A stretch of DNA of 64,000 nt from Tubulanus polymorphus (Eukaryota; Nemertea; Palaeonemertea; Tubulaniformes; Tubulanidae). Within the stretch, counting starts at the first letter, position 1, and every line of letters starts with the position of its first letter. The stretch covers positions 2,113,001 to 2,177,000 of the forward strand of contig NC_134025.1 of the NCBI RefSeq assembly GCF_964204645.1. The letters run 5' to 3'. This document shows positions 8,131-39,800 of the stretch, in pieces. The notes under the pieces are model-generated. The model worked only from the letters and a program-made list of their open reading frames with translations, was not told the origin of the DNA and did no database searches. A program made the position numbers and the translations under genes.

Positions 8131-8134
8131 GGCA

Positions 8135-12800: not shown

Positions 12801-15800
12801 CTATTACTGATATCACGGGATAAACTGAAACTGACAAGAAAAAAATGAATATACGAACTATTCAAAGTGATATGCAGATCTACAAATGTTTCGTTTACAG
12901 TGTCCAAACGCCGGAAACGTTGGCAATTCGTGTACATCAACGGAAGAAGATGATGCTGCTACTGAGCATTGTCGCCCAATAACCCGACGATTTGCAAGTT
13001 GTAGACCTTACGTAAGTTACGAAAATATTCATTTGTTGTTTCGTAATGACAACGACAATTAACGATATCGTGATCATTATCTCTAATTCCCACTAATGCA
13101 CAAGTTAATTATGAATGATATTTTAACAAATCCTTTATAAAGGTATCATTACAAAACTGGTTCAAACGGTGCAAAATTGATTACTGCAATGCGATGAAAG
13201 ATGCAGACGACGCCGATGGCCCGGAATTAGTCATTTGTACTACACTTGCTGCATTAGCACAAGAATGCGTTGTCGAGTCAGATGGAGCTATCCAGGTTTC
13301 ATGGAGAACCTCATCGCTTTGTCGTGAGTATGCTATTCATTCACAATTATAACACCATCCTCGTGAAACTGTGTTTTCAAGTCTGGTAACGCATAGTCAT
13401 GTCATCCGTTCTGTCCACTGCCATGCATGATGTTGTAACGGTTGAATCGTATTATATTTCAACAGCGAAGAAATGTCCAGAAGGCATGAAATATACCGAA
13501 TTTATGTCTACATGTCGACGCACGTGTGCTAATTTCTATGACCCCCACTTGCTCTCTCGACCTGAGTGCAAGGAAGTGGTTTCTGGCTGTAAATGCAAAA
13601 GCGGAACATTCTTAGACTTTAAAGATGACAAAGCAACCTGTATCCAAGGAGAATTGTGCCCGTGCTTTAGCAATAAGAAAAGATATGAATCTGGCGAATA
13701 TAAGTTCGTCGATTGCAACAAATGGTGCGAAACCTTTTTCACAACAAACTGCTGTTCTTAAATGCATCCGAGCGTCATGATTTTTAACCTTTTTTGTACA
13801 TTGTCTTTCAGCGAATGTTTTGGTGGTCGTTGGTCTTGTACAAAGAAAAGTTGTGATAGAACTTGTTTCCTCGTCAATGATCACGTATTTCCGTTTTCAC
13901 GATTCCCATACGCAATGAAAGGAGGCGATTGTGAATTCATTGCAGTCGAGGTATGAACTTAGTTGATCCAAATTAACACAGATCGAATCGCAATGTGTCA
14001 CGCAAGTTATCGATTATTACGAATATACTTTTAATATCAATGATTTATATCAACTTTACAGCCTATTTCATCCGAAGATCCTCGTGATAATCTAAACATA
14101 CGCGTTAAGGGAGAGTGTGCTGATGGGCAAGATTACATGTGTAATAAGAAACTTGTCATTGATTATATGGAAAAAAATATCGTAATGGAGAAAGAGTGTA
14201 AACTAACAGTAAACGGCGTGGAACATCCTCTTCCATATCACGACAATAGTCTATACGTAAAAAGGGAAACCAGCATTTACGTCCTTGTACATTTTCCGGA
14301 GGCTGAAATATTGTTTGATTGCTCAAAACGAATACTTATTACCCTGAGTCCATTCTTTATCAATAAGGTATCAATTCTTTTAAGTCTATTATAAGTTAAT
14401 CGTGGAACATACGATCGGTTTTGGCATTTAAATTTCTATTATTTCCTTATTTAGATGCGAGGTGTATGTGTCATCGCTAATGCAGAGAATGAACGATTCG
14501 TTCCACGAGGCCAATCTGTACCAGACGGAGAGAGTACATTCCTGACAAGTTACCGAACGCCAACGACTTGCACGGCATCACAGTTCCCAACTGAACTCAT
14601 AGAAGATGCTTGTGGAGGAGATGCTACCGTATGTGTTTTATTACAAATTAACGATACAAAATATAAACACATAATTATATTACCAAACTTTAATTTACCA
14701 CACGTTTCAATAAAATGATTTTCTCGTTATCTATTATCAGAAAAAGGCAGAAGCTCAAAGTCAGTGCCAGATTCTCGTAAGTGAAGATGGCCCGTTTTCA
14801 GATTGCAAGGACTCGCTTATCGAAGGTCTTTCGTCCTACTACGACCTTTGTGTCAGTGAAATCTGCTTGTCAACAGGAGATGGAACAGAAAAACTGGAAA
14901 GCAGGTGTACTGCTATAGCGACAGCGGCCCAGGCCTGCGCTAACGCTGGTGTCGTTATCAACTGGCTGAGAGGAATGTCATCATTCGAATGCCGTAAGTG
15001 TGATCTGAATGTATCTCCGAGGGACCTTAGTTCATACAAAGTTCGTGTAAACTCTCAGTAATGAATGATATTGGTTAAACCATTCAACTAAGTGCAATTC
15101 ATCTTCATCAATTATAGCAAGCATACCGATGTACTCGTGTGATAGCGGGACTTCATATGTGGAGTGTAGTGATTCTTGCAAATCCAACTGTCGTGACATG
15201 CAGGTCACGTCGAGATGCCGAAAAAAGAAACTTCAATGCATTCCTGGATGTCGATGCGAAAATAATCAACTGAAAGATGATTATAATCTTTGCGTCGATG
15301 TTAAAGACTGTACCTGCTATAACAAATACGATCAAACTGATCCGATAAAAGACGCAGGATCCACAATAAAACGAGGTTGCACTGAATGGTATGAACATAT
15401 AAATCCCTTTCCTAATCTTTTTATCGTGCCTCTGTTATATTTACTTCGACCTGCAAATGCATTTTTTCTGATCGTTCTTACAGCGAGTGTAATAATGGTA
15501 CATGGCATTGCGGTATAGAAAAATGTGCTGAAAAGGTCAAATGCCCAAAGAATCAGATACACTACAAACAAGACAAGCCATGCACAGTAAAATGTGCAGA
15601 CGTTGAATTCAGTAACTCAGATAGTTGTGTTAGCCAAGGGGAAGGCTGCGGGTGCCCGAGCGGCACAGTTTTGGCACCAAACGTATGAGTTTGATACAAA
15701 ACCTTTTTTGACGTAGATCAATTATTCATTCTTAATCCACTAATTTTTTCCTTTATTTCTGGATTTATTCCACAGGGAAGATGTCTTGCCCCAAAAAATT

Positions 15801-18800
15801 GCCCGTGTTCCATTGGAGGACAATGGCAAAAAAGAAATTCGGTAATCACCGTTGGTTGCAAAGAATAGTAAGTAGCAATCTGCGTGTGGCAGCAAACAGA
15901 TTCTCTCCAAATAGGAAGCAAACAGAAGTGATGCATATATCATATGCTGTTCTAAATCTATTTTTCAGTATATGCCTAGAACGCCAATGGAAGGTTCTCG
16001 GTGATCCAACGCAAAAGTGTCCTGGAGTTTGTTCTGCAACTGGTGATCCTCATTTCATAACCTTTGATAAGAAAGCTTTTTCATTCGAGGGCATGTGCAT
16101 GTATACCTTTGCCCGGACAAAAGAGGGTATTCAACCTTCTTTCGATATTACCACTGAAAATGTGCAGTGTGGTACATCTGGCGTTACTTGCACTAAATCT
16201 ACCATATTAACATTTGGTAGTAATCGTATTCATTTGTTACGAGGGACAAGCGTACAAGTTAACGACCAAATTCTAGATGGGTCTGATGTCAATTATTCAA
16301 CCGAGGATATGGAGATTTATAAAGCGGGCTTATTTACGACTGTATACGTAAAATCATTGAAATTAACCATTAGATGGGATGGCAGCACTAGGGTTTACGC
16401 GTTTCTGGATCCGATGTGGCAAGACAAAGTTGAAGGTCTATGTGGAAACTATAACAACAATCCTAACGACGACTTCGAATCTAAATCTGGAGGATTGGAG
16501 ACAGCGCCCCATACGTTCGCTGATTCATGGTCAATGGATTGCCCTGTAGGAAGTGATACGCCGTCAATCATTGGAGATAGTGAACCGTGCGCTGGGGTAC
16601 GTCATAAAATATATGAATATACATGTATATATATACAGGTATACGTTTCCTAATAAACTTGAAAGCTCAATTTAGTGATCTGGAAATGACTAGTGAGCGC
16701 GTATTTCCACAAACGAGTAATAAACATATTCTTAAGAAAGCGTTACCTTTCATGGTCATTAAAGTTAAAAACGATGAAATTCTTTATTTCAGGTAGAACA
16801 CAGGGAGTCATGGGCGAGGGAATCTTGTGCCGTACTCATGGATGAAAATGGACCATTTGCTGAATGTTTGAGGCGTGTTCCAAATACTGATTTATTTCAC
16901 AAACATTGTATTTTTGATTCTTGTCGATGCGATCAAGGAGGTGATTGCGAATGTCTGTGCACAGCCATAGCCGCCTTGTCTGAGTATTGTCGCCAGGCCG
17001 GAATACATTCAATCAAGTGGAGAAGCCAAAGACTTTGTCGTAAGTCATCGTCTAATATTGACTTTATATTGCAATCGCACAAAATACTTATCCTATTGAT
17101 GTAATATGATTTTATCAAATACAAGTAATGCGTGTATCGAAAAATCGTTTGAAATCCAAATGTTTTTAATTCAGCGATAATGTGTGAATATGGTAAATCG
17201 TATATGCCATGCGGGCCACCATGCGCTCAAACTTGTGAAAATATTGGGGATGAGCCAGAAGAACATTGTACGATGTCAACATGCGTGGAAGGTTGTTTCT
17301 GTCCCCCAGGAACAGTGGAACACGGTAATACTTTAACTAGAATCTTATTTCACAAAATCAACAGTTGCGAGTTAATTTATATCTATTGTGTTAAAGTTAG
17401 TTCATTTCCAATAATTTGGCCGTACAGTCAAATTCTTATTGTAGAACTAAGACTGGGTTCTTGGTCCATAAGGAAGTTATATCAGATTTTTTAGAACGCG
17501 TTCCTCTTTCTTTCTAAGATGAAACGTGTGTACCGGCCAAAAAGTGTCCTTGTTATCACAATGGCGTACCATACCCAGCTGGAACAGTTATAACAGCGGA
17601 TTGCCAAAATTGGTAAGATCTACAGTGCATTTTCAAGTTCAGCTTAGTCAAACCCGCTGAGTAGCTAAATACGAAATAACGGCAATATGTTATATTGAAA
17701 TTTAGTCGGGCAATTCGTTCAAATTATAATTGATATACATTAGATCATCATCGTTGTTTTGATTTTATGAATTTGGCGCGTATTTTCGAATGTTCACTAT
17801 CGCCATAAGAAGCTAAAACTGTTTTGAAAGTGAAAAGCGTTCCTGCTCATCTTTGACTGTTTTCTTCAATGATCACCGCTATACACCGTACAATGTACAT
17901 TTCAGTACCTGCACAAATGGCAAATTTGATTGTGTCGGCAAACCATGTGCCGAGAAGACATGCCCTCCCGATAAATTTGTTTGTGAAAGTGGCCAGTGCA
18001 TCGATCCGGAATGGAGATGCGATCAGGCTGAAGACTGTGGAGATGGATCAGACGAGAAAGATTGCATAAGTATGTACATGTTACGAACGTTTTCACTCTA
18101 TCGCACGCATATATGAATACTAACTGAATAGACACGGGTCAACGACGCAGCGGCCTCAATGGCTCCTTCGGTATAGGCATGATACTGTTGCATTCACTAT
18201 CAGTGCTGAGTGACAAGCGGTTTCGTGTCCTGCTGACTGCTTACGGTATGCGTGTAACACTTCGAAGGCCTTCCCGTTGTGAGGCTAAATGATCAATCTA
18301 ATAGGGCTAGTCTATATACAAACAAGATCGGAACGACGTAATGCAAAAAAAATAAATGATAATTAAACTTGTATAAAAGAAACAAAAATCTATTTGCTCC
18401 TATCATATTGCAGCCACTTGCAAACCAGATGAATTCCAGTGTATGGCAGGCATGTGCATAGATAACTCGCATGTTTGTGACGGAGTTCCAGACTGCATGG
18501 ATTCTTCGGACGAACAACAAAACTGCAGTAAGTTATTCATCTCTGAGAACACCTTGTAAGGAGGTGCAGTGGAACTTTAATAAGACGATGAAATATGTTT
18601 AATTTAACGGACACATTTAGTCAAACTGCGAGTTCAATTTCATGGAAACTTGGTATCGATTCATTTAAGACATACTTCGAGCACCGGTATAATTTGTATT
18701 TGAATAAAAATCCATATTTTCAGCTTACTGTCCAGAGGGATTGTTCACCTGTGCAAACCGCAAATGTATTCCTCTCAAATTCAAATGCGATGGTACTGAT

Positions 18801-21800
18801 GACTGTGGGGACAACAGCGAAGAGAAAAACTGTACAGGTTATTAACATTCGTCATTATGAACCATTTATCGTCAGAATTATCATCTTTAACTACTACTCT
18901 TATTATCATCATCAATATTGCAGAGGATGAATGCGTGTCAGAAGAAGCGTTCAGGTGTGCTGACGGTGATTGTTTACCGTCTTCACGAAGGTGTGACGGT
19001 CATGATGACTGCGGAGATGGAACCGACGAGATTGGATGCAGTATGTGGATTTTAATAAAGATATTTTGGATTTTCTACATTCGAATTGGGGATATAAAAT
19101 TTTACGTTTTAACGTTCTTGTTTGTTGTTGTTCCTTCATCGAGATTGTACGTTGTATTATTATTTTCAAAGCAACATCAACTACCAGTGGGACATGCGCA
19201 GTTGGAATGTACACGTGTGACAATGGTCAATGCGTAGACCCAACAGGTATTATCTGTAATGGAGTGAATGATTGTGGCGATGGAACTGATGAATCACAAT
19301 GCGGTAAGCCGTTTTTTTTTACCGGACGCTTCAAATAATCAAGTGAATCTGTGCGGCCGACTACACGATGATTCTCATTTGAATCTCAACAGGTTCTCTG
19401 CCAACATCAACAGTTCTCGGTTGTATAGTCGGAACGTATCAATGTCCTGAAAATAAAGAATGCATCAACAAGACGAAACTTTGTGATGGCAGAGACGATT
19501 GCTCAAGGGGTGAAGATGAAGTGGGTTGTACTACACTAGGTATGTACAATATTAAAACCGAAGAATGAGTTGCACGATTACCTGAATAGGAAAAAATCAA
19601 TACTCTTTTATGCAAAAACAATTTTGTGTGAAATTGTGAAAAAATAATTTGAGGCTGATTCCGAGTCTATAACTCGGAATAAACTACGTATTCGAGAAAA
19701 TGTCACTTTAAACTAATTAGTAACGTGGGAATAAATCGTTTATTGTAATTAAGCATTATTTAACGCTAAAAAAACTACACTTGCAACAACAAAAACGAGC
19801 GAGATAATTAATTAACATATCAAACATTCCGACATAATATTATCACACGATAACATTTATCCCTGTAGCTCCATGTGTTCAGCGTGAGGGAATGGTTGAT
19901 AGTACAGTCATTACGGACGATGATATAACGATTTCACCCGACGAATACTTCGATAAAAGTGGTCTACGCCCCGGAACAAGTCAACCGTACACCACTTTCC
20001 AAGAAACTGTCAGTGTTGTTATGAACCTGTCAGAGGATCCTATCGTCATAGGTACAATCGCCGTGGAATCAAACAATGTTCAATCATATTTCGTTTCGAT
20101 CGATAATGAACCAATCGATAAGGTCAGTCATTTGGGATAAATCAAAACTATTAATGAATCACCTTAATTTATGTATGAATATATCTATATCTGTTTCTTC
20201 AATTACAGGATCTAGTCACATCGGACACAACTCTTGGACCTGACAATTCACTCACACCTGGTGATCCGTTGGATTTCAAAGACGACACCCTTGCCAAAAG
20301 CGTAACGATAACGTTCAAAAAAGGTCCTGGAGATTCTATGAGCTTTGTAATTGCTACGTTTGCGTGTTTCGTAGGTGAGTTTAAACTTTAAAGGTTACAT
20401 TAGAAATTACAGAAAACTTTATAATGTGAAACGTTGCGTCGCACTTATCACTATAATCTAATCTCCCCGATGATTATGAATGACAGAATAAAGCCACAGA
20501 AAGTTCTGAATTTATTTCGTCTGTCATAGAAAAATTATTTTTATCCTTGTATCATACTGGAAAATTCTATTTACGAAAGAAGATTTTAATGGATTTTCTA
20601 TATTGAAATTATTCCGAATTTTTTTTTCAAATATGACTTCACCGATTTGACGAATTTGAAACTATCCAGTTTTTTTTACATCAAACAAAATAAACATTCA
20701 TTTCAAATTCCGTTAAGAAGCACGCGTTATCGTATACTTAACATATACAAAAGAGCAAGTGGGCCAAATGACCCCATTGAAATACAAATGAGCATCAAAG
20801 CATGTTTCAAACCAGGTAATTTTTCAGAAAAAAAACCAAAAGTAAAACTAATTCACATAATGAAACATACTGCATTCGACTGATTAATTCACATTTATTG
20901 ATATATGTGTATATTCGGGTGATACAGGGTGTTTTTTAAAAGTTCGTTAAAAACCATTTTGCATTCTTTAGTATAATTAGCGAACAAAATGATTCCTACG
21001 AATTCATTGTTTCGGCTCACGGAGAAAACAAAATGACACATTTAGCATATGATTTTGTTAAGATAATAGTGTACGAAATTATTCTTTCGTGATACGATAC
21101 ACACACATTTTGTTTCATGCCAAAATATAGCTTTTGATGATAAGTGTGTTATTTTCTTTTGGGATTTGACCTTCAAACTCCGTTAATAAGCATGCGTTAT
21201 CGTATACTTTGCATATACAAAGGTCTAAAAACGGCGAATTTGTGTTAGTTGAAATTTCTCTGTATAAAGTATAAAGAAAATGAGTTATGCATTGTTTATA
21301 AAACAGGTTTTGTTTGTCTCACTTTACTTACGATGTTTTTCAAGTTTTCTTTGTCTGTCATCTATTTTTTCTTATTGTTCTTTTTAGGACAAACGCCCGG
21401 AACTACCGTTCCATCGACAACACCGGCTCCATGTGTTAAAAAAGACGGAATGAAAGACCCTCTGGTCATCTCAGCTGAAAGTATCTCAGCGACACCTCCA
21501 CTCGAGAATTCTGATGATGCCAATAAATTAAGACCAGGTGGTGCACTTTATTTACAAGTAGCAGCAAATCAAGTTGAATTGATCGTCGATCTAGACGATG
21601 ATGGAGTTGAGCTCGGAGAAGTTTCCATTGATTCACCAAACATCAACAATATCGACTATTTCGTAGTTTCCGTCAAGTCAACCGTAAACTCACCCTCATA
21701 CGATAAAATAACCAAGGTATATCATAACATCGATCGTTGTACATCTTAATGTTTATTCATAAAACTGGATTGTTATGCTCATAATATCGATCATAACATC

Positions 21801-24800
21801 TAATTGATATGAAATGAAATATTTTATAGACGGATGTGACAAATCCATCATCTGTTCCGAACAATGGAAAAGTTGAACCAGAGGATACTGTGCATTTGAA
21901 AGAAAATAAATTTGCCGCTAAAATCAAAGTGAAAGTTAAAAGAGCAAGTGGGTCAAATGACCCCATTGAAATACAATTGAGCATCAAAGCATGTTTCAAA
22001 CCAGGTAATTTTTCAGAAAAAAAACCAAAAGTAAAACTAATTCACATAATGAAACATACTGCATTCGACTGATTAATTCACATTTATTGATATATGTGTA
22101 TATTCGGGTGATACAGGGTGTTTTTTAAAAGTTCATAAAAACCATTTTGCATTCTTTAGTATAATTAGCGAACAAAAGGATTCCTACGAATTCATTGTTT
22201 CAGCTCACGGAGAAAACAAAATGACACATTTAGCATATGATTTTGTTAAGATAATAGTGTACGAAATTATTCTTTCGTGATACGATACACACACATTTTT
22301 TTTCATGCCAAAATATAGCTTTTGATGATAAGTGTGTTATTTTCTTTTGGGATTTGACCTTCAAACTCCGTTAATAAGCATGCGTTATCTTATACTTTGC
22401 ATATACAAAGGTCTAAAAACGGCGAATTTGTGTTAGTTGAAATTTCTCTGTATAAAGTATAAAGAAAATGAGTTATGCATTGTTTATAAAACAGGTTTTG
22501 TTTGTCTCACTTTACTTACGATGTTTTTCAAGTTTTCTTTGTCTGTCATCTATTTTTTCTTATTGTTCTTTTTAGGACAAACGCCCGGAACTACCGTTCC
22601 ATCGACAACACCGGCTCCATGTGTTAAAAGAGACGGAATGAAAGACCCTCTGGTCATCTCAGCTGAAAGTATCTCAGCGACACCTCCACTCGAGAATTCT
22701 GATGATGCCAATAAATTAAGACCAGGTGGTGCACTTTATTTACAAGTAGCAGCAAATCAAGTTGAATTGATCGTCGATCTAGACGATGATGGAGTTGAGC
22801 TCGGAGAAGTTTCCATTGATTCACCAAACATCAACAATATCGACTATTTCGTAGTTTCCGTCAAGTCAACCGTAAACTCACCCTCATACGATAAAATAAC
22901 CAAGGTATATCATAACATCGATCGTTGTACATCTTAATGTTTATTCATAAAACTGGATTGTTATGCTCATAATATCGATCATAACATCTAATTGATATGA
23001 AATGAAATATTTTATAGACGGATGTGACAAATCCATCATCTGTTCCGAACAATGGAAAAGTTGAACCAGAGGATACTGTGCATTTGAAAGAAAATAAATT
23101 TGCCGCTAAAATCAAAGTGAAAGTTAAAAGAGCAAGTGGGTCAAATGACCCCATTGAAATACAATTGAGCATCAAAGCATGTTTCAAACCAGGTAATTTT
23201 TCAGAAAAAAAACCAAAAGTAAAACTAATTCACATAATGAAACATACTGCATTCGACTGATTAATTCACATTTATTGATATATGTGTATATTCGGGTGAT
23301 ACAGGGTGTTTTTTAAAAGTTCATAAAAACCATTTTGCATTCTTTAGTATAATTAGCGAACAAAAGGATTCCTACGAATTCATTGTTTCAGCTCACGGAG
23401 AAAACAAAATGACACATTTAGCGTATGATTTTGTTAAGATAATAGTGTACGAAATTATTCTTTCGTGATACGATACACACACATTTTTTTTCATGCCAAA
23501 ATATAGCTTTTGATGATAAGTGTGTTATTTTCTTTTGGGATTTGACCTTCAAACTCCGTTAATAAGCATGCGTTATCTTATACTTTGCATATACAAAGGT
23601 CTAAAAACGGCGAATTTGTGTTAGTTGAAATTTCTCTGTATAAAGTATAAAGAAAATGAGTTATGCATTGTTTATAAAACAGGTTTTGTTTGTCTCACTT
23701 TACTTACGATGTTTTTCAAGTTTTCTTTGTCTGTCATCTATTTTTTCTTATTGTTCTTTTTAGGACAAACGCCCGGAACTACCGTTCCATCGACAACACC
23801 GGCTCCATGTGTTAAAAGAGACGGAATGAAAGACCCTCTGGTCATCTCAGCTGAAAGTATCTCAGCGACACCTCCACTCGAGAATTCTGATGATGCCAAT
23901 AAATTAAGACCAGGTGGTGCACTTTATTTACAAGTAGCAGCAAATCAAGTTGAATTGATCGTCGATCTAGACGATGATGGAGTTGAGCTCGGAGAAGTTT
24001 CCATTGATTCACCAAACATCAACAATATCGACTATTTCGTAGTTTCCGTCAAGTCAACCGTAAACTCACCCTCATACGATAAAATAACCAAGGTATATCA
24101 TAACATCGATCGTTGTACATCTTAATGTTTATTCATAAAACTGGATTGTTATGCTCATAATATCGATCATAACATCTAATTGATATGAAATGAAATATTT
24201 TATAGACGGATGTGACAAATCCATCATCTGTTCCGAACAATGGAAAAGTTGAACCAGAGGATACTGTGCATTTGAAAGAAAATAAATTTGCCGCTAAAAT
24301 CAAAGTGAAAGTTAAAAGAGCAAGTGGGTCAAATGACCCCATTGAAATACAATTGAGCATCAAAGCATGTTTCAAACCAGGTAATTTTTCAGAAAAAAAA
24401 CCAAAAGTAAAACTAATTCACATAATGAAACATACTGCATTCGACTGATTAATTCACATTTATTGATATATGTGTATATTCGGGTGATACAGGGTGTTTT
24501 TTAAAAGTTCATAAAAACCAATTAGCATTCTTTAGTATAATTAGCGAACAAAATGATTCCTACGAATTCATTGTTTCAGCTCACGGAGAAAACAAAATGA
24601 CACATTTAGCATATGATTTTGTTAAGATAATAGTGTACGAAATTATTCTTTCGTGATACGATACACACACATTTTTTTTCATGCCAAAATATAGCTTTTG
24701 ATGATAAGTGTGTTATTTTCTTTTGGGATTTGACCTTCAAACTCCGTTAATAAGCATGCGTTATCTTATACTTTGCATATACAAAGGTCTAAAAACGGCG

Positions 24801-27800
24801 AATTTGTGTTAGTTGAAATTTCTCTGTATAAAGTATAAAGAAAATGAGTTATGCATTGTTTATAAAACAGGTTTTGTTTATCTCACTTTACTTACGATGT
24901 TTTTCAAGTTTTCTTTGTCTGTCATCTATTTTTTCTTATTGTTCTTTTTAGGACAAACGCCCGGAACTACCGTTCCATCGACAACACCGGCTCCATGTGT
25001 TAAAAGAGACGGAATGAAAGACCCTCTGGTCATCTCAGCTGAAAGTATCTCAGCGAAACCTCCACTCGAGAATTCTGATGATGCCAATAAATTAAGACCA
25101 GGTGGTGCACTTTATTTACAAGTAGCAGCAAATCAAGTTGAATTGATCGTCGATCTAGACGATGATGGAGTTGAGCTCGGAGAAGTTTCCATCAATTCAC
25201 CAAACATCAACAATATCGACTATTTCGTTGTTTCCGTCAAGTCAACCGTAAACTCACCCTCATACGATAAAATAACCAAGGTATATCATAACATCGATCG
25301 TTGTACATCTAAATGTTTATTCATAAAACTGGTTTGTTATGCTCATAATATCGATCATAACATCTAATTGATATGAAATGAAATATTTTATAGACGGATG
25401 TGACAAATCCATCATCTGTTCCGAACAATGGAAAAGTTGAACCAGAGGATACTGTGCATTTGAAAGAAAATAAATTAGCCGCTAAAATCAAAGTGAAAGT
25501 TAAAAGAGCAAGTGGGTCAAATGACCCCATTGAAATACAATTGAGCATCAAAGCATGTTTCAAACCAGGTAATTTTTCAGAAAAAAAACCAAGAGTAAAA
25601 CTAATTCACATAATGAAACATACTGCATTCGACTGATTAATTCACATTTATTGATATATGTGTATATTCGGGTGATACAGAATGTTTTTTAAAAGTTCAT
25701 AAAAACCATTTTGCATTCTTTAGTATAATTAGCGAACAAAAGGATTCCTACGAATTCATTGTTTCAGCTCACGGAAAAAACAAAATGACACATTTAGCAT
25801 ATGATTTTGTTAAGATAATAGTGTACGAAATTATTCTTTCGTGATACGATACACACACATTTTTTTTCATGCCAAAATATAGCTTTTGATGATAAGTGTG
25901 TTATTTTCTTTTGGGATTTGACCTTCAAACTCCGTTAATAAGCATGCGTTATCGTATACTTTGCATATACAAAGGTCTAAAAACGGCGAATTTGTGTTAG
26001 TTGAAATTTCTCTGTATAAAGTATAAAGAAAATGAGTTATGCATTGTTTATAAAACAGGTTTTGTTTATCTCACTTTACTTACGATGTTTTTCAAGTTTT
26101 CTTTGTCTGTCATCTATTTTTTCTTATTGTTCTTTTTAGGACAAACGCCCGGAACTACCGTTCCATCGACAACACCGGCTCCATGTGTTAAAAGAGACGG
26201 AATGAAAGACCCTCTGGTCATCTCAGCTGAAAGTATCTCAGCGACACCTCCACTCGAGAATTCTGATGATGCCAATAAATTAAGACCAGGTGGTGCACTT
26301 TATTTACAAGTAGCAGCAAATCAAGTTGAATTGATCGTCGATCTAGACGATGATGGAGTTGAGCTCGGAGAAGTTTCCATCGATTCACCAAACATCAACA
26401 ATATCGACTATTTCGTAGTTTCCGTCAAGTCAACCGTAAACTCACCCTCATACGATAAAATAACCAAGGTATATCATAACATCGATCGTTGTACATCTTA
26501 ATGTTTATTCATAAAACTGGATTGTTATGCTCATAATATCGATCATAACATCTAATTGATATGAAATGAAATATTTTATAGACGGATGTGACAAATCCAT
26601 CATCTGTTCCGAACAATGGAAAAGTTGAACCAGAGGATACTGTGCATTTGAAAGAAAATAAATTTGCCGCTAAAATCAAAGTGAAAGTTAAAAGAGCAAG
26701 TGGGTCAAATGACCCCATTGAAATACAATTGAGCATCAAAGCATGTTTCAAACCAGGTAATTTTTCAGAAAAAAAAACCAAAAGTAAAACTAATTCACAT
26801 AATGAAACATACTGCATTCGACTGATTAATTCACATTTATTGATATATGTGTATATTCGGGTGATACAGGGTGTTTTTTAAAAGTTCGTTAAAAACCATT
26901 TTGCATTCTTTAGTATAATTAGCGAACAAAATGATTCCTACGAATTCATTGTTTCAGCTCACGGAGAAAACAAAATGACACATTTAGCATATGATTTTGT
27001 TAAGATAATAGTGTACGAAATTATTCTTTCGTGATACGATACACACACATTTTTTTTCATGCCAAAATATAGCTTTTGATGATAAGTGTGTTATTTTCTT
27101 TTGGGATTTGACCTTCAAACTCCGTAAATAAGCATGCGTTATCTTATACTTTGCATATACAAAGGTCTAAAAACGGCGAATTTGTGTTAGTTGAAATTTC
27201 TCTGTATAAAGTATAAAGAAAATGAGTTATGCATTGTTTATAAAACAGGTTTTGTTTATCTCACTTTACTTACGATGTTTTTCAAGTTTTCTTTGTCTGT
27301 CATCTATTTTTTCTTATTGTTCTTTTTAGGACAAACGCCCGGAACTTCCGTTCCATCGACAACACCGGCTCCATGTGTTAAAAGAGACGGAATGAAAGAC
27401 CCTCTGGTCATCTCAGCTGAAAGTATCTCAGCGACACCTCCACTCGAGAATTCTGATGATGCCAATAAATTAAGACCAGGTGGTGCACTTTATTTACAAG
27501 TAGCAGCAAATCAAGTTGAATTGATCGTCGATCTAGACGATGATGGAGTTGAGCTCGGAGAAGTTTCCATTGATTCACCAAACATCAACAATATCGACTA
27601 TTTCGTTGTTTCCGTCAAGTCAACCGTAAACTCACCCTCATACGATAAAATAACCAAGGTATATCATAACATCGATCGTTGTACATCTTAATGTTTATTC
27701 ATAAAACTGGATTGTTATGCTCATAATATCGATCATAATATCTAATTGATATGAAATGAAATATTTTATAGACGGATGTGACAAATCCATCATCGGTTCC

Positions 27801-30800
27801 GAACAATGGAAAAGTTGAACCAGAGGATACTGTGCATTTGAAAGAAAATAAATTTGCCGCTAAAATCAAAGTGAAAGTTAAAAGAGCAAGTGGGTCAAAT
27901 GACCCCATTGAAATACAATTGAGCATCAAAGCATGTTTCAAACCAGGTAATTTTTCAGAAAAAAAACCAAAAGTAAAACTAATTCACATAATGAAACATA
28001 CTGCATTCGACTGATTAATTCACATTTATTGATATATGTGTATATTCGGGTGATACAGGGTGTTTTTTAAAAGTTCATAAAAACCATTTTGCATTCTTTA
28101 GTATAATTAGCGAACAAAAGGATTCCTACGAATTCATTGTTTCAGCTCACGGAGAAAACAAAATGACACATTTAGCGTATGATTTTGTTAAGATAATAGT
28201 GTACGAAATTATTCTTTCGTGATACGATACACACACATTTTTTTTCATGCCAAAATATAGCTTTTGATGATAAGTGTGTTATTTTCTTTTGGGATTTGAC
28301 CTTCAAACTCCGTTAATAAGCATGCGTTATCGTATACTTTGCATATACAAAGGTCTAAAAACGGCGAATTTGTGTTAGTTGAAATTTCTCTGTATAAAGT
28401 ATAAAGAAAATGAGTTATGCATTGTTTATAAAACAGGTTTTGTTTATCTCACTTTACTTACGATGTTTTTCAAGTTTTCTTTGTCTGTCATCTATTTTTT
28501 CTTATTGTTCTTTTTAGGACAAACGCCCGGAACTACCGTTCCATCGACAACACCGGCTCCATGTGTTAAAAGAGACGGAATGAAAGACCCTCTGGTCATC
28601 TCAGCTGAAAGTATCTCAGCGACACCTCCACTCGAGAATTCTGATGATGCCAATAAATTAAGACCAGGTGGTGCACTTTATTTACAAGTAGCAGCAAATC
28701 AAGTTGAATTGATCGTCGATCTAGACGATGATGGAGTTGAGCTCGGAGAAGTTTCCATTGATTCACCAAACATCAACAATATCGACTATTTCGTTGTTTC
28801 CGTCAAGTCAACCGTAAACTCACCCTCATACGATAAAATAACCAAGGTATATCATAACATCGATCGTTGTACATCTTAATGTTTATTCATAAAACTGGAT
28901 TGTTATGCTCATAATATCGATCATAACATCTAATTGATATGAAATGAAATATTTTATAGACGGATGTGACAAATCCATCATCTGTTCCGAAAAATGGAAA
29001 AGTTGAACCAGAGGATACTGTGCATTTGAAAGAAAATAAATTTGCCGCTAAAATCAAAGTGAAAGTTAAAAGAGCAAGTGGGTCAAATGACCCCATTGAA
29101 ATACAATTGAGCATCAAAGCATGTTTCAAACCAGGTAATTTTTCAGAAAAAAAACCAAAAGTAAAACTAATTCACATAATGAAACATACTGCATTCGACT
29201 GATTAATTCACATTTATTGATATATGTGTATATTCGGGTGATACAGGGTGTTTTTTAAAAGTTCATAAAAACCAATTAGCATTCTTTAGTATAATTAGCG
29301 AACAAAATGATTCCTACGAATTCATTGTTTCAGCTCACGGAGAAAACAAAATGACACATTTAGCATATGATTTTGTTAAGATAATAGTGTACGAAATTTT
29401 TCTTTCGTGATACGATACACACACATTTTTTTTCATGCCAAAATATAGCTTTTGATGATAAGTGTGTTATTTTCTTTTGGGATTTGACCTTCAAACTCCG
29501 TTAATAAGCATGCGTTATCTTATACTTTGCATATACAAAGGTCTAAAAACGGCGAATTTGTGTTAGTTGAAATTTCTCTGTATAAAGTATAAAGAAAATG
29601 AGTTATGCATTGTTTATAAAACAGGTTTTGTTTGTCTCACTTTACTTACGATGTTTTTCAAGTTTTCTTTGTCTGTCATCTATTTTTTCTTATTGTTCTT
29701 TTTAGGACAAACGCCCGGAACTACCGTTCCATCGACAACACCGGCTCCATGTGTTAAAAGAGACGGAATGAAAGACCCTCTGGTCATCTCAGCTGAAAGT
29801 ATCTCAGCGACACCTCCACTCGAGAATTCTGATGATGCCAATAAATTAAGACCAGGTGGTGCACTTTATTTACAAGTAGCAGCAAATCAAGTTGAATTGA
29901 TTGTCGATCTAGACGATGATGGAGTTGAGCTCGGAGCAGTTTCCATCAATTCACCAAACATCAACAATATCGACTATTTCGTAGTTTCCGTCAAGTCAAC
30001 CGTAAACTCACCCTCATACGATAAAATAACCAAGGTATATCATAACATCGATCGTTGTACATCTTAATGTTTATTCATAAAACTGGATTGTTATGCTCAT
30101 AATATCGATCATAACATCTAATTGATATGAAATGAAATATTTTATAGACGGATGTGACAAATCCATCATCTGTTCCGAAAAATGGAAAAGTTGAACCAGA
30201 GGATACTGTGCATTTGAAAGAAAATAAATTTGCCGCTAAAATCAAAGTGAAAGTTAAAAGAGCAAGTGGGTCAAATGACCCCATTGAAATACAATTGAGC
30301 ATCAAAGCATGTTTCAAACCAGGTAATTTTTCAGAAAAAAAACCAAAAGTAAAACTAATTCACATAATGAAACATACTGCATTCGACTGATTAATTCACA
30401 TTTATTGATATATGTGTATATTCGGGTGATACAGGGTGTTTTTTAAAAGTTCATAAAAACCATTTTGCATTCTTTAGTATAATTAGCGAACAAAAGGATT
30501 CCTACGAATTCATTGTTTCGGCTCACGGAGAAAACAAAATGACACATTTAGCATATGATTTTGTTAAGATAATAGTGTACGAAATTATTCTTTCGTGATA
30601 CGATACACACACATTTTTTTTCATGCCAAAATATAGCTTTTGATGATAAGTGTGTTATTTTCTATTGGGATTTGACCTTCAAACTCCGTTAATAAGCATG
30701 CGTTATCGTATACTTTGCATATACAAAGGTCTAAAAACGGCGAATTTGTGTTAGTTGAAATTTCTCTGTATAAAGTATAAAGAAAATGAGTTATGCATTG

Positions 30801-33800
30801 TTTATAAAACAGGTTTTGTTTGTCTCACTTTACTTACGATGTTTTTCAAGTTTTCTTTGTCTGTCATCTATTTTTTCTTATTGTTCTTTTTAGGACAAAC
30901 GCCCGGAACTACCGTTCCATCGACAACACCGGCTCCATGTGTTAAAAGAGACGGAATGAAAGACCCTCTGGTCATCTCAGCTGAAAGTATCTCAGCGAAA
31001 CCTCCACTCGAGAATTCTGATGATGCCAATAAATTAAGACCAGGTGGTGCACTTTATTTACAAGTAGCAGCAAATCAAGTTGAATTGATTGTCGATCTAG
31101 ACGATGATGGAGTTGAGCTCGGAGCAGTTTCCATCGATTCACCAAACATCAACAATATCGACTATTTCGTAGTTTCCGTCAAGTCAACCGTAAACTCACC
31201 CTCATACGATAAAATAACCAAGGTATATCATAACATCGATCGTTGTACATCTTAATGTTTATTCATAAAACTGGATTGTTATGCTCATAATATCGATCAT
31301 AACATCTAATTGATATGAAATGAAATATTTTATAGACGGATGTGACAAATCCATCATCTGTTCCGAAAAATGGAAAAGTTGAACCAGAGGATACTGTGCA
31401 TTTGAAAGAAAATAAATTTGCCGCTAAAATCAAAGTGAAAGTTAAAAGAGCAAGTGGGTCAAATGACCCCATTGAAATACAATTGAGCATCAAAGCATGT
31501 TTCAAACCAGGTAATTTTTCAGAAAAAAAACCAAAAGTAAAACTAATTCACATAATGAAACATACTGCATTCGACTGATTAATTCACATTTATTGATATA
31601 TGTGTATATTCGGGTGATACAGGGTGTTTTTTAAAAGTTCATAAAAACCATTTTGCATTCTTTAGTATAATTAGCGAACAAAATGATTCCTACGAATTCA
31701 TTGTTTCAGCTCACGGAGAAAACAAAATGACACATTTAGCATATGATTTTGTTAAGATAATAGTGTACGAAATTATTCTTTCGTGATACGATACACACAC
31801 ATTTTTTTTTCATGCCAAAATATAGCTTTTGATGATAAGTGTGTTATTTTCTATTGGGATTTGACCTTCAAACTCCGTTAATAAGCATGCGTTATCGTAT
31901 ACTTTGCATATACAAAGGTCTAAAAACGGCGAATTTGTGTTAGTTGAAATTTCTCTGTATAAAGTATAAAGAAAATGAGTTATGCATTGTTTATAAAACA
32001 GGTTTTGTTTGTCTCACTTTACTTACGATGTTTTTCAAGTTTTCTTTGTCTGTCATCTATTTTTTCTTATTGTTCTTTTTAGGACAAACGCCCGGAACTA
32101 CCGTTCCATCGACAACACCGGCTCCATGTGTTAAAAGAGACGGAATGAAAGACCCTCTGGTCATCTCAGCTGAAAGTATCTCAGCGAAACCTCCACTCGA
32201 GAATTCTGATGATGCCAATAAATTAAGACCAGGTGGTGCACTTTATTTACAAGTAGCAGCAAATCAAGTTGAATTGATTGTCGATCTAGACGATGATGGA
32301 GTTGAGCTCGGAGCAGTTTCCATCAATTCACCAAACATCAACAATATCGACTATTTCGTAGTTTCCGTCAAGTCAACCGTAAACTCACCCTCATACGATA
32401 AAATAACCAAGGTATATCATAACATCGATCGTTGTACATCTTAATGTTTATTCATAAAACTGGATTGTTATGCTCATAATATCGATCATAACATCTAATT
32501 GATATGAAATGAAATATTTTATAGACGGATGTGACAAATCCATCATCTGTTCCGAAAAATGGAAAAGTTGAACCAGAGGATACTGTGCATTTGAAAGAAA
32601 ATAAATTTGCCGCTAAAATCAAAGTGAAAGTTAAAAGAGCAAGTGGGTCAAATGACCCCATTGAAATACAATTGAGCATCAAAGCATGTTTCAAACCAGG
32701 TAATTTTTCAGAAAAAAAAACAAAAGTAAAACTAATTCACATAATGAAACATACTGCATTCGACTGATTAATTCACATTTATTGACATATGTGTATATTC
32801 GGGTGATACAGGGTGCTTTTTAAAAGTTCATAAAAACCATTTTGCATTCTTTAGTATAATTAGCGAACAAAAGGATTCCTACGAATTCATTGTTTCGGCT
32901 CACGGAGAAAACAAAATGACACATTTAGCATATGATTTTGTTAAGATAATAGTGTACGAAATTATTCTTTCGTGATACGATACACACACATTTTTTTTCA
33001 TGCCAAAATATAGCTTTTGATGATAAGTGTGTTATTTTCTATTGGGATTTGACCTTCAAACTCCGTTAATAAGCATGCGTTATCGTATACTTTGCATATA
33101 CAAAGGTCTAAAAACGGCGAATTTGTGTTAGTTGAAATTTCTCTATATAAAGTATAAAGAAAATGAGTTATGCATTGTTTATAAAACAGGTTTTGTTTGT
33201 CTCACTTTACTTACGATGTTTTTCAAGTTTTCTTTGTCTGTCATCTATTTTTTCTTATTGTTCTTTTTAGGACAAACGCCCGGAACTACCGTTCCATCGA
33301 CAACACCGGCTCCATGTGTTAAAAGAGACGGAATGAAAGACCCTCTGGTCATCTCAGCTGAAAGTATCTCAGCGAAACCTCCACTCGAGAATTCTGATGA
33401 TGCCAATAAATTAAGACCAGGTGGTGCACTTTATTTACAAGTAGCAGCAAATCAAGTTGAATTGATTGTCGATCTAGACGATGATGGAGTTGAGCTCGGA
33501 GCAGTTTCCATCAATTCACCAAACATCAACAATATCGACTATTTCGTAGTTTCCGTCAAGTCAACCGTAAACTCACCCTCATACGATAAAATAACCAAGG
33601 TATATCATAACATCGATCGTTGTACATCTTAATGTTTATTCATAAAACTGGATTGTTATGCTCATAATATCGATCATAACATCTAATTGATATGAAATGA
33701 AATATTTTATAGACGGATGTGACAAATCCATCATCTGTTCCGAAAAATGGAAAAGTTGAACCAGAGGATACTGTGCATTTGAAAGAAAATAAATTTGCCG

Positions 33801-36800
33801 CTAAAATCAAAGTGAAAGTTAAAAGAGCAAGTGGGTCAAATGACCCCATTGAAATACAATTGAGCATCAAAGCATGTTTCAAACCAGGTAATTTTTCAGA
33901 AAAAAAACCAAAAGTAAAACTAATTCACATAATGAAACATACTGCATTCGACTGATTAATTCACATTTATTGATATATGTGTATATTCGGGTGATACAGG
34001 GTGTTTTTTAAAAGTTCATAAAAACCATGTGTTAAAAGAGACGGAATGAAAGACCCTCTGGTCATCTCATTGTTAAGATAATAGTGTACGAAATTATTCT
34101 TTCGTGATACGATACACACACATTTTTTTTCATGCCAAAATATAGCTTTTGATGATAAGTGTGTTATTTTCTATTGGGATTTGACCTTCAAACTCCGTTA
34201 ATAAGCATGCGTTATCGTATACTTTGCATATACAAAGGTCTAAAAACGGCGAATTTGTGTTAGTTGAAATTTCTCTGTATAAAGTATAAAGAAAATGAGT
34301 TATGCATTGTTTATAAAACAGGTTTTGTTTGTCTCACTTTACTTACGATGTTTTTCAAGTTTTCTTTGTCTGTCATCTATTTTTTCTTATTGTTCTTTTT
34401 AGGACAAACGCCCGGAACTACCGTTCCATCGACAACACCGGCTCCATGTGTTAAAAGAGACGGAATGAAAGACCCTCTGGTCATCTCAGCTGAAAGTATC
34501 TCAGCGAAACCTCCACTCGAGAATTCTGATGATGCCAATAAATTAAGACCAGGTGGTGCACTTTATTTACAAGTAGCAGCAAATCAAGTTGAATTGATTG
34601 TCGATCTAGACGATGATGGAGTTGAGCTCGGAGCAGTTTCCATCAATTCACCAAACATCAACAATATCGACTATTTCGTAGTTTCCGTCAAGTCAACCGT
34701 AAACTCACCCTCATACGATAAAATAACCAAGGTATATCATAACATCGATCGTTGTACATCTTAATGTTTATTCATAAAACTGGATTGTTATGCTCATAAT
34801 ATCGATCATAACATCTAATTGATATGAAATGAAATATTTTATAGACGGATGTGACAAATCCATCATCTGTTCCGAAAAATGGAAAAGTTGAACCAGAGGA
34901 TACTGTGCATTTGAAAGAAAATAAATTTGCCGCTAAAATCAAAGTGAAAGTTAAAAGAGCAAGTGGGTCAAATGACCCCATTGAAATACAATTGAGCATC
35001 AAAGCATGTTTCAAACCAGGTAATTTTTCAGAAAAAAAACCAAAAGTAAAACTAATTCACATAATGAAACATACTGCATTCGACTGATTAATTCACATTT
35101 ATTGACATATGTGTATATTCGGGTGATACAGGGTGCTTTTTAAAAGTTCATAAAAACCATTTTGCATTCTTTAGTATAATTAGCGAACAAAAGGATTCCT
35201 ACGAATTCATTGTTTCAGCTCACGGAGAAAACAAAATGACACATTTAGCATATGATTTTGTTAAGATAATAGTGTACGAAATTATTCTTTCGTGATACGA
35301 TACACACACATTTTTTTTCATGCCAAAATATAGCTTTTGATGATAAGTGTGTTATTTTCTATTGGGATTTGACCTTCAAACTCCGTTAATAAGCATGCGT
35401 TATCGTATACTTTGCATATACAAAGGTCTAAAAACGGCGAATTTGTGTTAGTTGAAATTTCTCTGTATAAAGTATAAAGAAAATGAGTTATGCATTGTTT
35501 ATAAAACAGGTTTTGTTTGTCTCACTTTACTTACGATGTTTTTCAAGTTTTCTTTGTCTGTCATCTATTTTTTCTTATTGTTCTTTTTAGGACAAACGCC
35601 CGGAACTACCGTTCCATCGACAACACCGGCTCCATGTGTTAAAAGAGACGGAATGAAAGACCCTCTGGTCATCTCAGCTGAAAGTATCTCAGCGAAACCT
35701 CCACTCGAGAATTCTGATGATGCCAATAAATTAAGACCAGGTGGTGCACTTTATTTACAAGTAGCAGCAAATCAAGTTGAATTGATTGTCGATCTAGACG
35801 ATGATGGAGTTGAGCTCGGAGCAGTTTCCATCAATTCACCAAACATCAACAATATCGACTATTTCGTAGTTTCCGTCAAGTCAACCGTAAACTCACCCTC
35901 ATACGATAAAATAACCAAGGTATATCATAACATCGATCGTTGTACATCTTAATGTTTATTCATAAAACTGGATTGTTATGCTCATAATATCGATCATAAC
36001 ATCTAATTGATATGAAATGAAATATTTTATAGACGGATGTGACAAATCCATCATCTGTTCCGAAAAATGGAAAAGTTGAACCAGAGGATACTGTGCATTT
36101 GAAAGAAAATAAATTTGCCGCTAAAATCAAAGTGAAAGTTAAAAGAGCAAGTGGGTCAAATGACCCCATTGAAATACAATTGAGCATCAAAGCATGTTTC
36201 AAACCAGGTAATTTTTCAGAAAAAAAACCAAAAGTAAAACTAATTCACATAATGAAACATACTGCATTCGACTGATTAATTCACATTTATTGACATATGT
36301 GTATATTCGGGTGATACAGGGTGCTTTTTAAAAGTTCATAAAAACCATTTTGCATTCTTTAGTATAATTACCGAACAAAAGGATTCCTACGAATTCATTG
36401 TTTCAGCTCACGGAGAAAACAAAATGACACATTTAGCATATGATTTTGTTAAGATAATAGTGTACGAAATTATTCTTTCGTGATACGATACACACACATT
36501 TTTTTTCATGCCAAAATATAGCTTTTGATGATAAGTGTGTTATTTTCTATTGGGATTTGACCTTCAAACTCCGTTAATAAGCATGCGTTATCTTATACTT
36601 TGCATATACAAAGGTCTAAAAACGGCGAATTTGTGTTAGTTGAAATTTCTCTGTATAAAGTATAAAGAAAATGAGTTATGCATTGTTTATAAAACAGGTT
36701 TTGTTTGTCTCACTTTACTTACGATGTTTTTCAAGTTTTCTTTGTCTGTCATCTATTTTTTCTTATTGTTCTTTTTAGGACAAACGCCCGGAACTACCGT

Positions 36801-39800
36801 TCCATCGACAACACCGGCTCCATGTGTTAAAAGAGACGGAATGAAAGACCCTCTGGTCATCTCAGCTGAAAGTATCTCAGCGACACCTCCACTCGAGAAT
36901 TCTGATGATGCCAATAAATTAAGACCAGGTGGTGCACTTTATTTACAAGTAGCAGCAAATCAAGTTGAATTGATTGTCGATCTAGACGATGATGGAGTTG
37001 AGCTCGGAGCAGTTTCCATCAATTCACCAAACATCAACAATATCGACTATTTCGTAGTTTCCGTCAAGTCAACCGTAAACTCACCCTCATACGATAAAAT
37101 AACCAAGGTATATCATAACATCGATCGTTGTACATCTTAATGTTTATTCATAAAACTGGATTGTTATGCTCATAATATCGATCATAACATCTAATTGATA
37201 TGAAATGAAATATTTTATAGACGGATGTGACAAATCCATCATCTGTTCCGAAAAATGGAAAAGTTGAACCAGAGGATACTGTGCATTTGAAAGAAAATAA
37301 ATTTGCCGCTAAAATCAAAGTGAAAGTTAAAAGAGCAAGTGGGTCAAATGACCCCATTGAAATACAATTGAGCATCAAAGCATGTTTCAAACCAGGTAAT
37401 TTTTCAGAAAAAAAAACCAAAAGTAAAACTAATTCACATAATGAAACATACTGCATTCGACTGATTAATTCACATTTATTGATATATGTGTATATTCGGG
37501 TGATACAGAATGTTTTTTAAAAGTTCATAAAAACCATTTAGCATTCTTTAGTATAATTAGCGAACAAAAGGATTCCTACGAATTCATTGTTTCAGCTCAC
37601 GGAGAAAACAAAATGACACATTTAGCATATGATTTTGTTAAGATAATAGTGTACGAAATTATTCTTTCGTGATACGATACACACACATTTTTTTTCATGC
37701 CAAAATATAGATTTTGATGATAAGCGTGTTATTTTCTTTTGGGATTTGACCTTCAAACTCTTCAGTTGAGCGGTACCTTTAGGCTGTCAATGTAATACGA
37801 TACTGGGATGACAATATGCCGTTCAGAAAATTATGCCGTTCAGAAAATAACCTTGGACTGTAGATCTGCACAAAACATCACCTACTTCTACTTAGAAGGA
37901 ATGAAAAACTAACCGCTTATTGCGGGAATAAACATATATATGACATGAATGAATAGTGATCAAACACCTGTGAAGCAATGATCAATGAAAACCAAATACA
38001 TAAACATGAAAATATATGATTTCACCTTACAAGTTCTCCTCCACTCGACTAATTTCAGTGTCTTTCGTGATTTAAGTTTGATAAAGATCATTCTCCCAGT
38101 GCTATATTGCTTCCATCATGAGAGCAGTACTAAGAGTTCTTCATTGAAATTGTGTCTAAATTTACATTGAAATAGAAGTAAAAGACGAGAAAAAATTTTA
38201 TATCGAACTAAGATCTTCAGCAACCAGAGAGTTTTTAAACCTATACCACGATATATTTTACAGTTATTTCAACAACCACTGTAGTTGTATCTACTGCATC
38301 AGGGACACTTCCAACCACATGTGCAGCTAATCAGTTTGTCTGTGATAAGTGTTTAAAACCTGACCAAAGATGCGATGGCACGGTGGACTGTATCGATGGC
38401 AGTGATGAAAGAGGATGTGGTTAGTACAGTGATTCGTTTGAATGGATGGGCCCAATTTAATCAATGATTCGTCTAACATTCCTCAAAGCTGGAGTAGACA
38501 TTTTATTTCGTTGAATTATGAAAAATTAGTAACAAATTATATATACATTTTAATCAAGGTACGACAACCACGAGTGTTACACCAGGAGTCACACCAGGAG
38601 TCACACCAGGAGCTACACCAGGAGTCACACCAGGAGCTACACCAGGAGTCACACCAGGAGTCACACCAGGAGCTACACCAGGAGTCACACCAGGAGCTAC
38701 ACCAGGAGTCACACCAGGGGCTACACCAGGAGTCACACCAGGAGCTACACCAGGAGTCACACCAGGGGCTACACCAGGAGTCACACCAGGGGCTACACCA
38801 GGAGTCACACCAGGCGCTACACCAGGAGTCACTCCAGGCGCTACACCAGGAGTCACACCAGGGGCTACACCAGGAGTCACACCAGAAGCTACACCAGGAG
38901 TCACACCAGGGGCTACACCAGGAGTCACACCAGGAGCTACACCAGGAGTCACACCAGGCGCTACACCAGGAGTCACACCAGGAGCTACACCAGGAGTCAC
39001 ACCAGGAGCTACACCAGGAGTCACACCAGGAGCTACACCAGGAGTCACACCAGGAGCTACACCAGGAGTCACACCAGGCGCTACACCAGGAGTCACACCA
39101 GGCGCTACACCAGGAGTCACACCAGGAGCTACACCAGGAGTCACACCAGGTGCTACACCAGGAGTCACACCTGGAGCTACACCAGGAGTCACACCGGGAG
39201 CTACACCAGGAGTCACACCCGGAGCTACACCAGGAGTCACACCAGGGGCTACACCAGGAGTCACACCAGGCGCTACACCAGGAGTCACACCAGGGGCTAC
39301 ACCAGGAGTCACACCAGGAGCTACACCAGGAGTCACACCAGGAGCTACACCAGGAGTCACACCAGGGGCTACACCAGGAGTCACACCAGGGGCTACACCA
39401 GGAGTCACACCAGGCGCTACACCAGGAGTCACACCAGGGGCTACACCAGGAGTCACACCAGGAGCTACACCAGGAGTCACACCCGGAGCTACACCAGGAG
39501 TCACACCAGGCGCTACACCAGGAGCTACACCAGGGGCTACACCAGGAGTCACACCGGGCGCTACACCAGGAGCCACACCAGGAGCTACACCAGGAGTCAC
39601 ACCAGGAGCTACACCAGGAGTCACACCAGGTGCTACACCAGGAGTCACACCTGGAGCTACACCAGGAGTCACACCGGGAGCTACACCAGGAGTCACACCC
39701 GGAGCTACACCAGGAGTCACACCGGGGGCTACACCAGGAGTCACACCGGGAGCTACACCAGGAGTCACACCAGGGGCTACACCAGGAGTCACACCTGGTG

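Follow-up and report, generated by a model that had tools for sequence, protein, structure and literature searches.

A tandem array of fourteen two-exon modules in a SCO-spondin-type, mucin-like giant gene of Tubulanus polymorphus, and its likeness to the discoidin domain

The stretch of DNA considered here (the window) comprises 64,000 nucleotides (nt) from the palaeonemertean Tubulanus polymorphus (NCBI RefSeq assembly GCF_964204645.1, contig NC_134025.1, positions 2,113,001 to 2,177,000 of the forward strand). Positions are those of the window unless a contig is named, C1 being the contig that carries the window. Within a gene that runs on past the end of the window lies an array of 14 in-frame copies of a two-exon module, which we call M2. 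From the deduced architecture we think it rather likely that the array belongs to one giant secreted protein whose ends are of SCO-spondin type and whose repeats are of mucin type, most probably one that forms a mucus gel or serves as an adhesive. The evidence for this comes from the regularity of the array, from the domains that surround it, and from comparison of the module with its relatives in the same gene and in a neighbouring paralogue.

Anatomy and variation of the array

An earlier note on this DNA, made from its letters, had described 14 complete two-exon units of 168 amino acids (aa) with a period of 1,188 base pairs (bp), in frame and with intact splice sites, and this is confirmed for all 14. 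Each unit is laid out as exon A (329 nt), intron 1 (113 nt), exon B (175 nt) and intron 2, and the exons have AG/GT borders and open frames throughout. The start-to-start spacing is exactly 1188 bp in 10 of the 13 intervals and 1190, 1189 and 1132 bp in the remaining three, while of the 13 complete copies of intron 2 ten are 571 nt long and the others 573, 572 and 515 nt. As the phases are 1-0-1, exactly 168 aa are added per exon pair at any copy number, and the contribution of the array to the protein is 2,352 aa. The translated unit has two cysteines near its ends, an isoelectric point of 4.9 and a 15-residue Pro/Thr/Ser linker.

The coding sequences of the units are 98–100% alike, with adjacent units often the closest, and they fall into nine DNA types that encode eight proteins. 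Identical coding sequences are found in units 10–13, in units 2 and 3, and in units 8 and 14. When the second intron is included, no two of the 13 complete units are the same, the mean pairwise difference being 1.2% and the highest 3.5%. The five highest differences all involve unit 11, whose second intron has lost 56 bp, and at several sites the 5′ half and the 3′ half of the array hold different states. Variable columns amount to 2.4% of exon A, 1.7% of exon B, 2.7% of intron 1 and 8.0% of intron 2, the last figure being inflated by the deletion in unit 11. A DNA search of the genome with unit 1 (267.8 Mb in 77 contigs; all genome match counts given here are lower bounds) returned, among the matches listed, at least 16, all of them in the window: the 14 units and two shorter matches, of 73 and 45 bases.

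The periodic region is longer than the array itself, extending from 20702 to 37760, and it starts and stops (37752–37760) at one short motif, TTCAAA(C/T)TC. Measured between these sites, it amounts to 15 units with flush ends. Unit 0, at the 5′ side, is the relic of a fifteenth unit: a deletion of 719 bp removed exon A together with intron 1 and 108 nt from the start of exon B, and what is left is identical to the next unit at 458 of 469 aligned bases.

The groups of units with identical coding sequences might suggest an assembly artefact, in which identical reads have been stacked and the real copy number is much smaller. Against this, all 13 full units differ from one another, so that they are not exact copies made by an assembler, and the 56-bp deletion, the graded variants along the array, the flush array ends and a window that contains no N speak in the same direction, so we consider an artefact very unlikely. 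These features of the array fit unequal crossing-over combined with local homogenisation, and speak against a purely artefactual origin. A different possibility is that the units are alternative exons, of which each transcript uses a subset, so that the length of the rod varies. Every unit is frame-neutral, and skipping any number of them would keep the frame, but with only eight protein types that lie a few residues apart the choice of units would generate little diversity, and we regard this explanation as improbable.

The host gene and its domain order

The model of the host gene extends from 9783 to 82685, beyond the end of the window, and has 102 exons that encode 14,687 aa with one terminal stop. 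It was obtained with a simple splice-aware Viterbi procedure trained on hand-picked exons of the region. The procedure missed several VWD exons and most of the array exons; the array exons were placed by their conserved borders, and on revision six exons of a second module, D, were added and three LDLa starts were shifted. Since internal stops are avoided by construction and parts of the VWD region are missing, the length and completeness of the model are approximate. In an earlier 96-exon version all 95 introns were GT-AG, a result that the method itself favours.

The N-terminal part of the protein consists of a signal-peptide-like start, a weak EGF-like stretch, VWD/C8/TIL and six LDLa domains, and is followed by module M1, the 14 M2 units and one further LDLa (Table 1). 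The middle part is dominated by exons of TPGA-type repeats (TPGA exons) in the order TPGA exon, D with three LDLa, TPGA exon, module M3, TPGA exon, D with three LDLa. A TPGA exon of 2375 aa comes next, then D with three LDLa, a short TPGA stretch, LDLa, TIL and TSP1. The protein ends with a 5.4-kb exon that has a TIL-like start and SGPGGATP repeats, then TSP1/TIL, a cystine-knot-like end and a tail. The signal-peptide-like start, the LDLa after the array, the LDLa-like exon triplets and the TIL of the 5.4-kb exon were assigned by eye and not by a Pfam scan.

In the N-terminal part Pfam identified VWD (E = 1.3e-37, two stretches), LDLa (E = 2.6e-37, six stretches), C8 (E = 2.3e-24, three stretches) and TIL (three stretches), with EGF models matching below their cut-off. 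Only two VWD stretches pass, as compared with three each of C8 and TIL, and several VWD exons are absent from the model. The two C-terminal pieces scanned contained TSP_1 in two and eight stretches (E = 7e-64 for the eight) and TIL in one and three. The protein thus has the cluster of LDLa domains (six) and the repeated TSP_1 and TIL domains in its C-terminal part that are traits of SCO-spondin. Set beside the domain list of chick SCO-spondin, the Pfam set of VWD, C8, TIL, LDLa and TSP1 bears out the proposal of the earlier note that this is a SCO-spondin-type gene, and a module (M1) that immediately follows the LDLa cluster, with 14 further in-frame units, is borne out as well.

Five exons longer than 3 kb, mostly TPGA, account for 56% of the model, and about 25% of the residues of the four TPGA exons are Thr and 25% Pro. 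In the giant TPGA exons, which are 3.8–7.1 kb long, several frames are open, on both strands, so an open frame tells little there when taken alone; the exons on either side fix the frame.

M1 and M3 are diverged copies of the array unit, M1 lying just before the array and M3 12 kb after it. The internal intron of M3 (49616–51405), which contains an ATGATT microsatellite at 50585–50659, is 1.8 kb long, whereas the corresponding intron has 113 nt in the array units and 86 nt in M1. D is a second type of two-exon module, present in three near-identical copies, each of which is followed by three LDLa-like exons.

Table 1. Features of the host gene in the window and just beyond it
Feature	Positions	Strand	Basis or remark
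5′ part: signal-peptide-like start, weak EGF-like stretch, three C8, three TIL with VWD, six LDLa	9783–19539	+	Gene model and Pfam
Module M1, 140 aa, exons 19869–20122 and 20209–20374	19869–20374	+	Directly after the LDLa cluster
Truncated unit 0, part of exon B left	20702–21171	+	Alignment to next unit
Array of 14 in-frame M2 units, first to last exon base, 2 Cys each	21388–37395	+	Conserved borders, unit alignment
Last partial intron copy	37396–37760	+	Periodic region ends at TTCAAACTC-type site, as at its start
LDLa-like exon after array	38303–38419	+	By eye
Giant TPGA/TPGV repeat exon, 1447 aa	38559–42899	+	Gene model
Module D copy 1, exons 43058–43377 and 43465–43662	43058–43662	+	F5/8C-like only through paralogues
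Three LDLa-like exons	43751–44304	+	By eye
Giant TPGA repeat exon, 1266 aa	45404–49201	+	Gene model
Module M3, 136 aa, exons 49368–49615 and 51406–51565	49368–51565	+	
Giant TPGA repeat exon, 1373 aa	52030–56148	+	Gene model
Module D copy 2, exons 56328–56647 and 56735–56932	56328–56932	+	
Three LDLa-like exons	57021–59664	+	By eye
Giant TPGA repeat exon, 2375 aa	59762–64000	+	Gene model; reaches 66886, beyond window
Module D copy 3	67065–67669		Beyond window

Relatives of the module and the origin of the array

Directly upstream of the host gene lies a paralogue. Read here as one gene, it covers C1 from 2.038 Mb or earlier up to about position 7600 of the window. Its module set consists of N1 (M1-like), N3 (M3-like) and four copies of N2 (M2-like), the exon B borders of N2 and N3 having been placed by eye from open frames. 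All six module types (M1, M2, M3, N1, N2 and N3) keep both end cysteines, at 26–36% identity to N2. Genome-wide searches with the modules (E up to 10) gave, among the matches listed, at least 23 for M1 and at least 36 for the array unit, all within C1:2.045–2.163 Mb.

A profile built from six rows, one for each module type, was compared with a profile of the F5/8C (discoidin) domain using HHalign. The two align over 138 columns with a score of 34.7, a probability of 67 and an E-value of 5.2e-5 (for one comparison), and the alignment spans the first to the last cysteine with cysteine placed on cysteine. Shuffled profiles all stayed below this score, with a maximum of 19.9 in 300 column shuffles and of 24.7 in 300 block shuffles; the reversed profile scored 13.4, and control profiles of TSP1, LDLa, VWD, TIL, FN3 and Ig scored 6.8–11.3. 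Of the six F5/8C reference rows, four were checked by Pfam. In the paralogue, N2 matches PF00754 with an E-value of 1.6e-4 (22.2 bits), and the D modules match it with E-values of 5.8e-5 and 2.7e-6 (23.7 and 28.0 bits), in each case under the cut-off of 28.2 bits. Taken together we judge the M module to be probably discoidin-like, a wording chosen because the Pfam scores lie under the curated cut-off and the module is not filed as a member of PF00754. Elsewhere in this genome there are, among the matches listed, at least 60 exon matches to PF00754, and none in the host gene.

Several results weigh against a discoidin assignment. Five of the six module types (the array unit, M1, M3, N1 and N3) gave no F5/8C match in Pfam, the array unit alone matched no Pfam family significantly (best E = 0.17), and sequence searches of the PDB with one, three or six module sequences found nothing significant. 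The F5/8C profile scores only 13.0–22.4 against single M rows and 22.5 against the three window rows together, and an M profile without N2 scores 25.3, just over the block-shuffle maximum. Exon A, the longest piece uninterrupted by an intron, was modelled by itself with AlphaFold; the predicted local distance difference test (pLDDT) values were 52.4 and 49.2, strands being the only elements of note in the second model, and Foldseek searches with these low-confidence half-domain models gave no match at E ≤ 0.001. The term discoidin-like, which the earlier note had applied to the unit, is weakly supported: the six-row profile goes beyond all 600 shuffles, but its score depends on N2, and the 168-aa unit taken alone has no significant Pfam family.

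The D modules of the window gave no match to PF00754 in Pfam and none in the PDB, their best match to another Pfam family being a sub-threshold one to AFP_2 (E = 0.013). The score of D against F5/8C was reached by four of 300 block shuffles. That M and D might be close relatives was considered, and is unsupported by direct comparison of their profiles (score 18.2 over 27 columns).

The relationships among the six module types bear on where the array came from. In a tree of the six rows M3 pairs with N3 (support 96/94) and M2 with N2 (83/85, below the 95/80 taken as the mark of support), M1 joins the M2 and N2 pair weakly (65/66), and N1 forms a long branch. The two pairings suggest that M3, and probably M2, were already separate types before the gene was duplicated. 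M2 would then probably have been amplified separately after the duplication, as 14 single units in the host gene and as four larger cassettes in the paralogue. Each of these cassettes consists of D, three LDLa and N2, and their starts lie 2922, 2976 and 3374 apart; a short PVTPGVTQP mucin stretch comes after each of cassettes 1–3 and one of 15.9 kb after cassette 4, and the paralogue also has giant STGPTSSF exons. The cassettes lie at C1:2063424–2075131, and their 300-nt blocks are 99–100% alike, the intervening short mucin stretches less so. Judged from these sequences, the amplification of the cassettes is separate from that of the window array.

In vertebrate SCO-spondin the FA5/8C domain lies directly after the LDLa cluster, and the earlier note had supposed that this single site was turned into the array. 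This is probably not the case. The array units are 28% identical to M1, the copy that occupies this position, over the whole module and 33% over exon A, while the tree places M2 with N2; if M2 was a separate type before the duplication, M1 is unlikely to be the source. We suggest instead that the array arose when a single exon pair, symmetrical in phase (1-1), was multiplied by unequal crossing-over, probably after duplication of an ancestral gene that had several module types.

The part of the paralogue that falls in the window (484–7626) is its C-terminal part, with TIL and TSP1 recognised by eye and a cystine-knot-like end, and it includes a 24-bp coding minisatellite for SGPGGATP at 1578–2354. 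Between the two paralogous genes there is a 17-bp minisatellite of seven copies (8013–8133). On another contig, a weak connexin match (C12:3797368–3797622) has two internal stops and lies beside a poly-Q stretch, and is probably spurious. Searches of the genome for COX1, GFP, GH6, innexin and Chitin_bind_4 gave no match; for all of these but COX1 the control genomes gave none either, so that the negatives are no evidence of absence.

Proposed role and comparison with known systems

With about 56% of its model in five giant repeat exons, the host protein looks like a gel-forming mucin or an adhesive. By analogy with VWF, mucins and SCO-spondin, its N-terminal VWD-C8-TIL region and its putative C-terminal cystine knot would link monomers to one another. 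The threonines of the TPGA stretches would be O-glycosylated, making these stretches spacers that hold the chain open, and the M and D (discoidin-like), LDLa and TSP1 modules would be folded binding knots along it. The array itself may be pictured as a flexible string of 14 equal, two-cysteine and probably beta-rich domains on Pro/Thr/Ser linkers, and could raise avidity for a single ligand such as a sugar, a lipid, a mineral surface or the gel itself. That the units hardly differ points to high avidity for one ligand and not to many specificities.

Some findings count against this reading. At the C-terminus PF00007 (Cys_knot) has an E-value of 0.0087 and 16.8 bits against a cut-off of 24, with an E-value of 0.0014 in the paralogue. 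EMI gave no Pfam match in the host protein up to an E-value of 10, with filters that remove most matches above 0.1, and by eye one 10-residue stretch resembles the EMI motif. Within the array seven of the 11 variable codons are non-synonymous and four synonymous, where the possible changes number 1090 and 352, so no strong selection on the M2 units is visible. The role in mucus or glue is itself deduced from the architecture.

The array could also have arisen by neutral or mildly costly tandem expansion, in which unequal crossing-over made the symmetrical exon pair a self-propagating array that would be tolerated since the frame is always kept and that would add no function. Such an expansion would be compatible with the gene being of the kind proposed here, and it is favoured by exon variability about equal to that of intron 1, by substitutions close to neutral, by the phase 1-1 symmetry of the exon pair and by the decayed unit at the 5′ end. 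On the other hand, the paralogue has amplified a homologous module too, and both end cysteines are kept in six module types of low identity, which suggests that the module type itself is constrained. We consider purely neutral expansion a possibility with some weight, though on balance an unlikely one.

Among vertebrate proteins, chick SCO-spondin has three vWF-D, 13 LDLrA, 12 TIL and 27 TSR domains, a CTCK and one FA5/8C domain according to the available description (PMC8487547). Where the chick protein has a single FA5/8C, the host gene has 16 M modules (M1, 14 M2 and M3) and three D; the chick domain list is without giant mucin exons and its role is neural, whereas the host gene has giant repeat exons. 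The similar domain order might indicate a true SCO-spondin orthologue whose role is neural, like that of Reissner's fibre, in place of one in mucus or adhesion. This appears distinctly improbable given that over half of the model lies in giant repeat exons, that the gene has local duplicates with different repeat types, and that two and eight TSP_1 were found in the two C-terminal pieces scanned as against the 27 TSR in chick.

The proposed mucus or adhesive protein has likenesses to several invertebrate and mucin systems. Gel-forming mucins, as summarised in the sources available, have a VWD N-terminus, large Pro/Thr repeats and a cystine-knot C-terminus. The host protein follows this plan in its long Pro/Thr-rich repeats (four TPGA exons) and its N-terminal VWD, and adds LDLa, TSP1 and discoidin-like modules to it. 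In limpet adhesive pedal mucus, P-vulgata_3 and P-vulgata_6 are reported as SCO-spondin-like halves, with vWFD/C8/TIL/LDLrA and with TSP1 plus a cystine knot (PMC7333891); they are derived from transcripts, and the available account describes no domain array in them. Sea urchin nectin, reported in the account at hand as a confirmed temporary adhesive and cohesive protein of 984 aa, has six tandem discoidin (FA58C) domains (PMC10057474), whose repeats are 47–55% alike as compared with the 98–100% of the M2 coding sequences.

Closest in plan to the host protein are the flatworm ap2 adhesion proteins. In the descriptions available, Mlig-ap2 is a protein of 14,794 aa with N-terminal vWD/TIL/C8/LDL, 21 repeats of 255 aa and 25 repeats of 221 aa, followed by TSP-1/TIL, and its knock-down results in non-adhesive animals (PMC8621496, PMC6410801). 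Tmed-ap2, with 7,228 aa, contains two blocks of full repeats, eight of 330 aa and 12 of 230 aa, and has a TSP/TIL C-terminus; the available text names no vWD end for it (PMC9229212). Like the host protein, Mlig-ap2 has a vWD/TIL/C8/LDL end, a core of domain-sized units in tandem and a TSP1/TIL end. The flatworm repeats, of 221–330 aa, are longer than the 168-aa M2 units, to which they are likened here by description only, and the available descriptions mention neither TPGA exons nor discoidin-like modules, both of which the host gene has. The adhesive role of Mlig-ap2 was established by knock-down, whereas the host gene is known here from sequence.

The earlier note knew of no SCO-spondin with such an array. 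No description of a discoidin-like array in a SCO-spondin-type protein was found in the literature, in searches that covered listings and passages and where terms with a slash such as 'F5/8' were unsearchable, so papers may have been missed; the claim needs qualifying in that Mlig-ap2 has comparable ends, with its 21 and 25 repeats in tandem between them. A more speculative and rather unlikely reading would join these systems. Animals would share an old SCO-spondin chassis with a VWD-C8-TIL/LDLa end and a TSP1/TIL end, and the discoidin-like region after the LDLa cluster would be a hot spot of tandem amplification, which would have given the 14-fold, near-identical string here and the ap2 repeats from the same region. 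Gels and glues would then bind surfaces through this repeat, and its copy number would tune stickiness and vary between individuals.

The array offers a defined protein for expression and testing, next to the core repeats of flatworm ap2, whose function is reported as unknown in the sources available. It also offers a natural case for asking whether selection in gels and glues acts on the copy number of a folded module, as opposed to that of a short mucin repeat. Set beside the SCO-spondins, the mucins and the adhesion proteins above, the combination of modules in this gene looks new, as a variant of a known design and not as a new kind.

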